The position numbers were made by a program, and so were the translations under genes. 39,405 nucleotides of DNA from Verrucomicrobiia bacterium (lineage in GTDB: Bacteria > Verrucomicrobiota > Verrucomicrobiia > Limisphaerales > UBA11358): assembly GCA_025451535.1 (NCBI GenBank), contig JANWKE010000050.1, forward strand, positions 1 through 39,405, in the 5' to 3' direction. Under the pieces are notes generated by a model that saw nothing but the letters and a program-made list of their open reading frames with translations, was not told the origin of the DNA and searched no databases. Positions 3,915 to 30,065 of the stretch are shown piece by piece (position 1 is the first letter of the stretch; every line of letters begins with the position of its first letter).

Positions 3915-4063
3915 GATGGAAACAGTATCTCAAAAAGTTCAATACGCAAGTGCCTGACACAAAATGTCCACACCCGTGTCACGCCAACATAACCCCAAAG
4001 CCGGTTCGCGCAACGGGGATTTTTTGCCATATTTTGGCCAAAAAACGGGTGATGCCGTCGTTG

Positions 4064-4130
4064 TAGCGGCGTTTCGGCAGAGCGCCGCCTTCTTAAAAGT
4101 AACAAAAGACCGGCTTTCTGCCGAAAAGCC
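4064..4130 (-). terminator. Inverted-repeat hairpins, probable terminator of the beta-helix gene
   Basis: On the minus strand, GGCTTTTCGGCAGAAAGCC forms a hairpin followed by GGTCTTTTGTT, placed 18 bp past the stop of the beta-helix gene. The 10-mer TTTCGGCAGA (near 4070) recurs as its exact inverse, TCTGCCGAAA, near 4117, and a second hairpin (GGCG...CGCC) surrounds the left copy. The block starts with GTAGCGGCG and may also be a degraded copy of the GTAGC-type repeats found elsewhere in this window. Confidence 0.45.
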
Positions 4131-4147
4131 AATACGGACTCTCGGTT

Positions 4148-18247: not shown

Positions 18248-18321
18248 AACCACGGATGGACACGGAAGGACACGGATGAATTCCGCCTTTTATCTGTGTC
18301 CATCTGTGTTTATCCGTGGTT
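18248..18321. repeat. Palindromic repeat between sufT and sufS
   Basis: AACCACGGAT at the left end is the exact inverse of ATCCGTGGTT at the right end, and an inner GGACAC/GTGTCC pair continues the fold. The 74-bp block lies 4 bp after sufT and ends 11 bp before the sufS ATG. The wording (CACGGATGGACACGG...) is like intergenic repeats known from this phylum, and is unrelated to the palindrome in the sufD-sufU gap. Confidence 0.75.
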
Positions 18322-22662: not shown

Positions 22663-22730
22663 TTCGGAGGGACGAGCTCTGCGAGTCCCAAACTTATAAT
22701 TCGGGGGCTTGTGTAACTCGCCCCTCCGAA
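22663..22730. repeat. TTCGGAGGG palindromic repeat, copy 1
   Basis: Starts TTCGGAGGGACGAGCTCTGC and ends CTCGCCCCTCCGAA, its near-exact inverse. The first 27 bp are identical to those of the copy at 35775-35847, and the ends match too, while the middle differs. It fills the 72-bp gap between two convergent genes and stops right at the ychF stop codon, so it could work as a two-way terminator. Confidence 0.85.
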
Positions 22731-28715: not shown

Positions 28716-30065
28716 ATGCCTCCATTAAACGTGGTGAACGACCAAAATCCAAGACAAATTGCAGCGGAAGTTTTACGGCAACAACGCGCCGGCGGCAGCT
28801 TTATCGAGGATTTGCTGGAACGCGCGTTGGCTGGAGCCAGGCTTCCCTCCGTTGATCGCGCGTTGTGCCAGGAACTCGTTTATGGCGTTGTCCGCTGGCA
28901 GGCCGCGCTCGACTGGCTCATCGCCCGAAAGACCGATGGCCGGGAACAAAAACCCGGCCTGCAAAACCTGCTGCGACTCGGCCTCTACCAGATCTTCTGG
29001 CTCAACCGGATTCCCGACCACGCCGCGGTGCATGAAACCGTCGAACTTGCCAAACGCAACGGATTCGGCTCACAAACCGGTTTTGTGAACGCTGTTTTGC
29101 GCGGTTATTTGCGCGAGGTCGAGGCCACCCAAGGGCGGCTGGCTGAACTTAAAGGTTCGCAACCGGCACTCGGCTGGTCGCACCCCGAATGGCTGGTGAC
29201 CCGCTGGCAGAAAAATTTTGGCGTGGGAAAGACGGCACAGCTTCTGGAATGGAACAACACACCGCCGAAAACATTCGCCCGCGTCAACCCGTTGAAAGCC
29301 GACGCCGGCAAACTGGTGGAAAAGTGGCGTGAGGAAAATGTGGACTACGATTTCGCCCGGCGCGGTTGGCTCGAAGAAAACCTGGTCTTCGAGTTGAAAT
29401 CGCATCCTCCCCTGGCGGCGCTGGATAGTTTCCGGCGGGGCTGGTTTTACGTTCAAGACCCCAGCACGCTGCTGGCCGCCGGCGAACTGGGTCCGTTGCC
29501 CGGCGAAACGATCCTGGATTTTTGTGCCGCGCCCGGCGGCAAGACTACCTTCCTCGCGCAGCTGATGAACAATCAAGGCCGCATCGTGGCGCAGGATGTT
29601 TCGGAAGAGCGATTGAAATTAATCCGGGAAAATTGCGTCCGTCTTGGCGTAATGTGTGTGGAGACGGTCATTAACGATTGGAACCGCCCTCACCCCGACC
29701 CTCTCCCCGAGGGAGAGGGTCGGGGTGAGGGAAAACGGTTCGATCGCATTCTGGTCGACGCGCCCTGCTCCAACACCGGCGTGATGCGCCGGCGCGTGGA
29801 TTTGCGCTGGCGGATTCAGTTGGAGGAAATTCTGCGGCTGCAGCGAACACAACTGATTTTACTCGAACAGGCCGCGTCGGGATTAAAGCCCGGCGGCGTT
29901 CTGGTTTACAGCACGTGCAGCCTGGAACCGGAGGAAAACCAGGAAGTCGTCAAAGAATTTTTGCACAGGCACAAGGAGTTCAGGCTGGAATCCGAGCGCG
30001 AATTGTTGCCATTTATCGATGGTGTTGACGGCGCGTTTGTTGCACGCCTGAAGCGGTTGCCGTAA
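28716..30065 (+). CDS. rsmB: 16S rRNA m5C967 methyltransferase RsmB with REP-derived insertion
   Basis: Encodes 449 aa from the ATG at 28716; the open frame before it overlaps greA antisense and is not family-like. An N-terminal NusB-like RNA-binding domain (about 10-145) precedes the SAM methyltransferase ('VQDPSTLLAAGELGPLPGETILDFCAAPGGKTTFLAQ'). Cys351 in VDAPCSNTG and Cys401 in YSTCSLEPEEN are the two catalytic Cys, spaced 50 apart as in E. coli. Residues ~324-339 (RPHPDPLPEGEGRGEG) come from a perfect palindrome inserted in frame just before the 'FDRILVDAPC' strand. The enzyme is otherwise complete and probably active. Confidence 0.95.
   Translation: MPPLNVVNDQNPRQIAAEVLRQQRAGGSFIEDLLERALAGARLPSVDRALCQELVYGVVRWQAALDWLIARKTDGREQKPGLQNLLRLGLYQIFWLNRIPDHAAVHETVELAKRNGFGSQTGFVNAVLRGYLREVEATQGRLAELKGSQPALGWSHPEWLVTRWQKNFGVGKTAQLLEWNNTPPKTFARVNPLKADAGKLVEKWREENVDYDFARRGWLEENLVFELKSHPPLAALDSFRRGWFYVQDPSTLLAAGELGPLPGETILDFCAAPGGKTTFLAQLMNNQGRIVAQDVSEERLKLIRENCVRLGVMCVETVINDWNRPHPDPLPEGEGRGEGKRFDRILVDAPCSNTGVMRRRVDLRWRIQLEEILRLQRTQLILLEQAASGLKPGGVLVYSTCSLEPEENQEVVKEFLHRHKEFRLESERELLPFIDGVDGAFVARLKRLP
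29687..29731. repeat. Perfect 45-bp palindrome (REP-like) inside rsmB
   Basis: Two exact 21-bp inverted arms separated by CGA; the left arm begins CCCTCACCCCGACCC. This is the widely dispersed 'CCTCACCC..CCCTCTCCC' type of repeat. It is 15 codons long and keeps the frame, giving PHPDPLPEGEGRGEG. Confidence 0.93.

Follow-up and report, generated by a model that had tools for sequence, protein, structure and literature searches.

A perfect 45-bp palindrome is translated in frame within rsmB, the gene for a 16S rRNA methyltransferase, in a Verrucomicrobiia bacterium, and it belongs to a repeat family with further in-frame copies in other conserved genes. The palindrome probably descends from a REPIN-like element that entered rsmB before the source species (G000) separated from its sister G010, later collapsed in frame, and left behind a peptide that the enzyme carries as tolerated baggage. 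It lies in a stretch of 39,405 nucleotides (the window, contig JANWKE010000050.1) from a 4.4-Mb draft genome of 188 contigs. This genome was compared with 48 others of the same genus, giving a set of 49. The closest named RsmB relatives were Verrucomicrobiota, several of them with Limisphaerales or Pedosphaera titles, and the titles of their records point to bog, lake, groundwater and similar sources.

The two arms of the palindrome are 100% complementary around a central CGA, as a preliminary description of this DNA had noted. No further arm match (up to three mismatches) was present in the rest of the window, and none of 100 shuffles of the window held two arm matches (shuffle mean 0.00). 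The whole palindrome is read within a single frame running from ATG to stop (Table 1). At 45 bp it corresponds to 15 codons, yet its phase spreads it over 16 residues. The predicted RNA fold of positions 29660–29760 reached −66.3 kcal/mol (z −7.3), with none of 200 shuffles as low, in keeping with the very strong mid-gene mRNA stem that had been proposed. Three other imperfect inverted repeats were found in the window, at 22663–22730, 4063–4135 and 18248–18311, the first two directly past the stop codons of minus-strand ORFs; all three may be other repeat families or terminators.

The host gene was identified from its domains and nearest homologues. The protein matched Pfam PF01029, PF01189 and PF22458 (NusB, RsmB/F methyltransferase and ferredoxin-like domains) and exceeded the cut-offs of the rsmB equivalogs NCBIfam PRK14902 and TIGR00563. 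Its closest solved structure was E. coli Fmu (1sqf), at E = 8.4e-58 by sequence and TM 0.85 by fold. Cys351 and Cys401, the catalytic cysteines of this family, were invariant across 48 aligned RsmB sequences (the window protein and 47 of the 80 RsmB loci listed), and the earlier claim that the insert leaves both in place holds. With a NusB-like domain, a methyltransferase domain and two conserved cysteines, the product is, on sequence grounds, RsmB, the 16S rRNA (cytosine-967-C5)-methyltransferase.

Table 1. Features of rsmB and its palindrome, in window coordinates.
Feature	Position	Strand	Basis
rsmB, 16S rRNA (cytosine-967-C5)-methyltransferase, insertion host, 449 aa	28716–30065	+	domains, equivalogs, structure match
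Perfect palindrome, 45 bp, probably a collapsed family A element	29687–29731	+	arm search, inverted-repeat search, collapse model
Left arm, 21 nt: 12-nt tag and hairpin arm CCCTCTCC	29687–29707	+	arm matches, inverted-repeat search
Right arm, 21 nt, reverse complement of the left arm	29711–29731	-	arm matches, inverted-repeat search
Codons 324–339, RPHPDPLPEGEGRGEG	29685–29732	+	translation; residues 329–338 pLDDT <50
Left flank, 18 of 19 letters common with the G010 insertion (window TCATTAACGATTGGAACCG; G010 TCATGAACGATTGGAACCG)	29668–29686	+	flank comparison
Codons of the strand preceding the loop, residues 315–319	29658–29672	+	model
Codons of the strand that follows the loop, residues 342–348	29739–29759	+	model
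Cys351 codon, invariant	29766–29768	+	alignment
Cys401 codon, invariant	29916–29918	+	alignment

In an AlphaFold model of the window RsmB (mean pLDDT 93.1), the low-confidence residues of the insert form a loop between the two strands listed in Table 1, which agrees, at the level of a model, with the surface loop suggested earlier. Alignment with relatives also behaved as expected for an insertion. From Gly311 to Phe342 the loop has 30 residues in the window, against 16–19 in 37 of the 45 usable RsmB sequences of the genus (three of the 49 genomes gave none, and one row ends at a contig edge). Without the insert the window loop would have about 15 residues, slightly below the range of most relatives. 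Among 69 other homologues, some from other phyla, six had a loop of at least 28 residues and one was broken there. Unrelated peptides of equal length are thus not the rule at this site across the phylum; the few exceptions include inserts of another family, F, in G006 and G001 (30 and 31 residues), which are repeat-derived themselves. The loop is hypervariable, and no empty RsmB site could be demonstrated in it at the nucleotide level.

The arm recurs throughout the source genome and the genus. In the source genome 53 arm matches (up to three mismatches) were found, against 4 for a reversed control pattern, so that about four of the 53 at most may be due to chance. Grouping of these matches gave 40 elements, here called family A. 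Twelve consist of two inward-pointing arms (+ then −) spanning 131–191 bp, each end combining a 12-nt tag with an approximately 8-bp hairpin, and a variable spacer lying between the ends; single-unit elements are also common. At up to two mismatches the arm occurred in 46 of the 49 genomes, with a maximum of 92 matches per genome (controls 0–1), and at up to one mismatch in 21 of 288 genomes sampled across the phylum. Copy number and scattered sites suggest that family A is mobile; no target-site duplication was established for it. Read in its three phases, the palindrome meets a TGA in one and is open in the other two. The recurrent peptides are of the PHPDPLP / GEGRGEG type, and the second frame reads an LTPTLSP type.

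At least 10 of the 40 elements in the source genome are read in frame in ORFs, with conserved domains flanking or spanning the insert. Besides RsmB, the hosts are HypF (L007), a zinc alcohol dehydrogenase (L008), PurL (L016), the glutamyl-tRNA reductase HemA (L020), PheS (L024), anthranilate / aminodeoxychorismate synthase component I (L025), a TIGR00275 flavoprotein (L028), a DpnI-like protein (L165) and 6-phosphogluconolactonase (L173). The preliminary description had proposed a search of the genome for the same repeat in other ORFs, and these copies answer it. In HemA (L020, approximately 1440–1560) a second, degenerate arm in the opposite direction seems, by eye, to lie just ahead of the listed one, also in frame.

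The same RsmB site is occupied in the sister species. The G010 insert there is of family A, measures 132 bp (44 codons) and keeps the frame; it lies on contig JAJXYT010000006.1 (L068; identical protein), and the flanks preceding the two insertions are nearly identical (Table 1). A tree built on four proteins of 46 genomes placed G000 and G010 as sisters (support 0.955) with G009 adjacent, and G009 has no family A element in this loop. A single entry ahead of the G000/G010 split would explain this most simply. A separate family A element of 150 bp occupies this loop in G007, which branches elsewhere on the tree.

Given the G010 element at the same site and the nearly identical flanks, the best reading of the 45-bp form is that a longer element collapsed in frame: the change from 132 to 45 bp would be a loss of 87 bp, or 29 codons, and would keep the frame. 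Both units of the long elements carry CCCTCTCC, or a close variant of it, as a direct repeat. Thirteen long elements, namely the 12 of the source genome and the G007 RsmB element (the G010 copy was not among them), were joined at this 8-mer with one mismatch allowed, giving 44 bp in 10 cases and 45 bp in three. The G007 element was among the latter, its loss of 105 bp being a multiple of three; another 45-bp product (L172) came from a looser 8-mer and was poorly palindromic (0.53). In the G010 copy as it now stands no 8-mer pair, exact or with one mismatch, is available for such a collapse, and the arms of that copy are decayed. An arm-correcting step may also be needed, as the self-complementarity of the window palindrome (0.93) is above that of the best product (0.91, L009).

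We propose that a short, non-autonomous REPIN-type repeat, comprising two inverted hairpin units and a spacer, entered rsmB in the common ancestor of the G000 species and G010, later than the G009 split. It would have survived because the frame was kept, the phase was free of stops, and the site fell, within the methyltransferase domain, in a disordered loop joining two strands. Slippage or recombination at the 8-bp direct repeats is the most likely way in which the element would then have collapsed in the window lineage, with removal of the spacer leaving the 45-bp palindrome. The peptide would be tolerated, rather than a working part of the enzyme. The preliminary description was right to see a REP-type repeat inserted in frame in a tolerant loop, but the 45-bp form it took for the insertion is probably the relic of a longer two-unit element and not the form that inserted.

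Family A is not the only repeat in RsmB. In-frame inserts assigned to a palindromic family were carried by nine of the 45 sequences, over three loops. The loop near residues 321–339 holds A in G000, G010 and G007 and F in G006 and G001; that near 194–198 holds B in G001 and G003, C in G010 and G in G009; and that near 217–220 holds E in G008 and B in G046. Beside its long family A element, the G010 gene (L068:1501–3024) thereby has a second in-frame palindrome of another family after residue 194, GCAGCCGACGTGAGGAGGCTCTGA and its complement. Family letters were given by eye, with copy-number searches for A, B, F and I. Each insert was taken from one open frame, and any out-of-frame insert would have escaped notice. 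The two other sites also lie between predicted elements of the model: helix 197–206 starts just past the first, and strands 210–213 and 224–229 border the second. Fold z scores of the inserts, from single-base shuffles, ranged from −8.6 (window) to −1.6 (family G of G009, the weakest assignment), and two loops without an insert gave 0.8 and 0.3. Pattern F was found in seven of the 49 genomes and was commonest in G001 (61) and G006 (29), both of which have F in an RsmB loop, with their RsmB copies within the pattern hits. Pattern B was found in 36 of the 49, its hits including the copies in the RsmB of G001 and G003.

Further inserts were seen outside the nine counted, in G034 (B-like by eye), G021, G014 and G019. 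In the RsmB of L078 (JACRJY010000134.1), a family A palindrome is, by eye, nested in frame in a family B element in the loop near 194–198. Where a loop has no palindrome, it is often made up of short tandem motifs (TTCAACC, AATTCGC, AACTCAA), as in L040, L041, L053, L057, L259 and L263, and these may themselves be repeat-derived.

A loop of PheS was read in 43 genomes from QDTFYL to LLRTHTS (L024, L238–L280), a procedure with no open-frame bias. In all 43 its length was a multiple of three and it was free of stops. The loop had six residues, mostly NTTDKR, in 17 genomes; it carried an assigned insert in 13; and in another 13 it was longer and left unassigned. The assigned inserts comprised seven of family A (G000, G003, G010, G015, G020, G031 and G034; by pattern in six, by eye in G031), three of family I (G007 in the pattern hits, G036 and G046 by eye), two F-like (G001 in the pattern hits, G006 by eye) and one of family J (G048, by eye, fold z −8.9). 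A, I and F each have a pattern match in a PheS gene. Most being single units, the family A inserts in this loop generally folded no better than their shuffled counterparts (z −3.0 to 0.7). Family I, which starts with GTAG, was found in 34 of the 49 genomes. It has 47 matches in the source genome (up to three mismatches), against the 53 family A arms, and in relatives often occurs as inverted pairs about 30–50 bp apart.

Fitch counts, in which a change is a gain, loss or replacement on hand labels and one tree, gave at least 11 state changes for PheS (shuffled mean 12.5) and 4, 3 and 2 changes for the three RsmB loops (shuffled means 4.9, 4.0 and 2.0). Values so near the shuffled means indicate that related species rarely share a state. 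Two proteins from the same window served as controls in searches of the 49 genomes, using near-full-length hits and leaving partial hits out. None of 42 SufB/D relatives and none of 43 YchF relatives was more than two residues longer than the matched query; one split SufB/D hit (G001) was ruled out as an insert, being a run of N. Not every gene in these drafts therefore has such inserts, with the proviso that two genes are a small control.

It had been supposed that palindromic repeats rarely survive in conserved enzymes. This genus departs from that expectation, with inserts in nine of 45 RsmB and 13 of 43 PheS sequences, partly assigned by eye. Particular surface loops of core enzymes are probably recurrent landing pads here. 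A, I, F and probably J have entered one PheS loop, and A and F one RsmB loop, always in frame, so that repeats would add, nest and trim peptides in essential proteins.

No candidate for a mobilising enzyme emerged from the source genome. It has seven Y1 transposase loci, three strong, two marginally above the Pfam cut-off and two below, and no family A arm (up to five mismatches) was found in the stretch examined around any of them; a RAYT link of family A was rejected on this result. For family I, only L033 matched, at six mismatches, and L035 has a bare GTAGCGGCG. A family C arm with two mismatches lies at L031:512, about 0.9 kb ahead of a strong Y1 transposase frame. Membership of the GTAG/CGTC superfamily was likewise rejected, on the tags: CGTC lay within 10 nt of 2 of 42 source-genome arms, close to the 4% expected per 10-mer from background, and with one mismatch, over a narrower stretch, at 13 of 42, while GTAG was absent from column counts around the 42 arms. 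A weak AACGnCCG-like consensus remains near family A arms. Rfam gave no match at the gathering score, and nine sub-threshold matches were taken as chance likenesses of a strong hairpin.

Other accounts of the palindrome were weighed against entry followed by collapse. It might have entered in its present 45-bp state, a short form in its own right, making the long element of G010 a second event. Single-unit elements are indeed common in the source genome, and the full short palindrome (exact pattern) exists once more, in G015, outside genes by inspection. However, that copy and the window's are the only ones in the 49 genomes, and the sister's element sits at the same codon position behind a nearly identical flank, so that short-form entry is unlikely. 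At the other extreme, chance self-complementarity, low-complexity coding sequence or an assembly artefact might be suspected in a draft of 188 contigs. The shuffles, the 53 copies against 4 in the control, and the occupied site in the separate assembly of G010 reduce this to a negligible probability.

Whether the palindrome was kept for a function, either through an mRNA hairpin that paces translation or folding, or through a loop by which the enzyme binds RNA, is a different matter. The predicted hairpin is very stable, and an element has been retained at the site through speciation. Yet the same loop in relatives holds other repeats or none, similar peptides occur in unrelated proteins, the arms of the long G010 form have decayed and the loop has low model confidence; we consider a function very unlikely. 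A preference at the DNA level, by target choice of an enzyme or insertion into older repeats, has a small but real chance of explaining the sites, in place of random entry and selection. The several families in one loop would fit it, as would the nested elements of L078. Against it, no motif common to the RsmB and PheS sites could be seen by eye, the model shows loops at all three RsmB sites, and selection after random entry predicts the same pattern. Entry of a REPIN-like element, later collapse and tolerance of the peptide remain the preferred account.

Protein-internal palindromic repeats are best known from Rickettsia, an intracellular genus, whose Rickettsia palindromic elements (RPEs) were reportedly described by Ogata and colleagues in 2000 and 2002. 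Family A resembles RPEs in lying in frame in unrelated conserved genes with a recurrent peptide. It differs in phylum and in that several families use the same loops, and the likeness is one of kind. According to one review, RPEs are palindromic repeats in frame in unrelated protein genes, with a conserved peptide per family (PMC10969869). REPs of the GTAG/CGTC type and REP dimers within ORFs are described in BMC Genomics 2013 (PMC3733652), where the most intragenic GTAG repeats were those of O. terrae (Verrucomicrobia) and different REPs were found at about the same recB site in two Xanthomonas. Unlike those repeats, most family A copies lack either tag; compared with the recB case, there are here more families per loop, two proteins (RsmB and PheS), and filled and empty states within one genus. 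In-gene REPs are thus already published, from Rickettsia and O. terrae (genus Opitutus), and the window case is of the same kind.

REPINs are described as two inverted REPs around a variable spacer, and the paper on them mentions, as unpublished data, that deletion between REPs leaves a long palindrome; it places the doublets in extragenic space and beside RAYT genes (PLoS Genet 2011, PMC3116915). The two-unit elements of family A, 12 of the 40, share this layout, and the window copy is without the spacer. Family A differs in having copies inside genes and no RAYT link at the seven Y1 loci of its own genome. Perfect inverted repeats within translated genes are also described for Nematomorpha mitochondria (PMC6649704); there both arms encode conserved parts of the protein, whereas the window palindrome encodes an added peptide. 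A literature search, which most subscription journals lay beyond, found no published description of family A or its peptide. Nor did it find a genus-wide record of several families using the same loops, the nearest being recB of two Xanthomonas.

These data place in-protein repeats in Verrucomicrobiota, in genes for a tRNA synthetase, an rRNA methyltransferase and biosynthesis enzymes. The presence of several repeats in the same loops of RsmB and PheS suggests that core enzymes repeatedly gain peptides from selfish DNA. The 49 related genomes include empty, filled, nested and apparently collapsed states, and with them it can be asked how often such repeats enter, which loops tolerate them, and whether the peptides are ever put to use.
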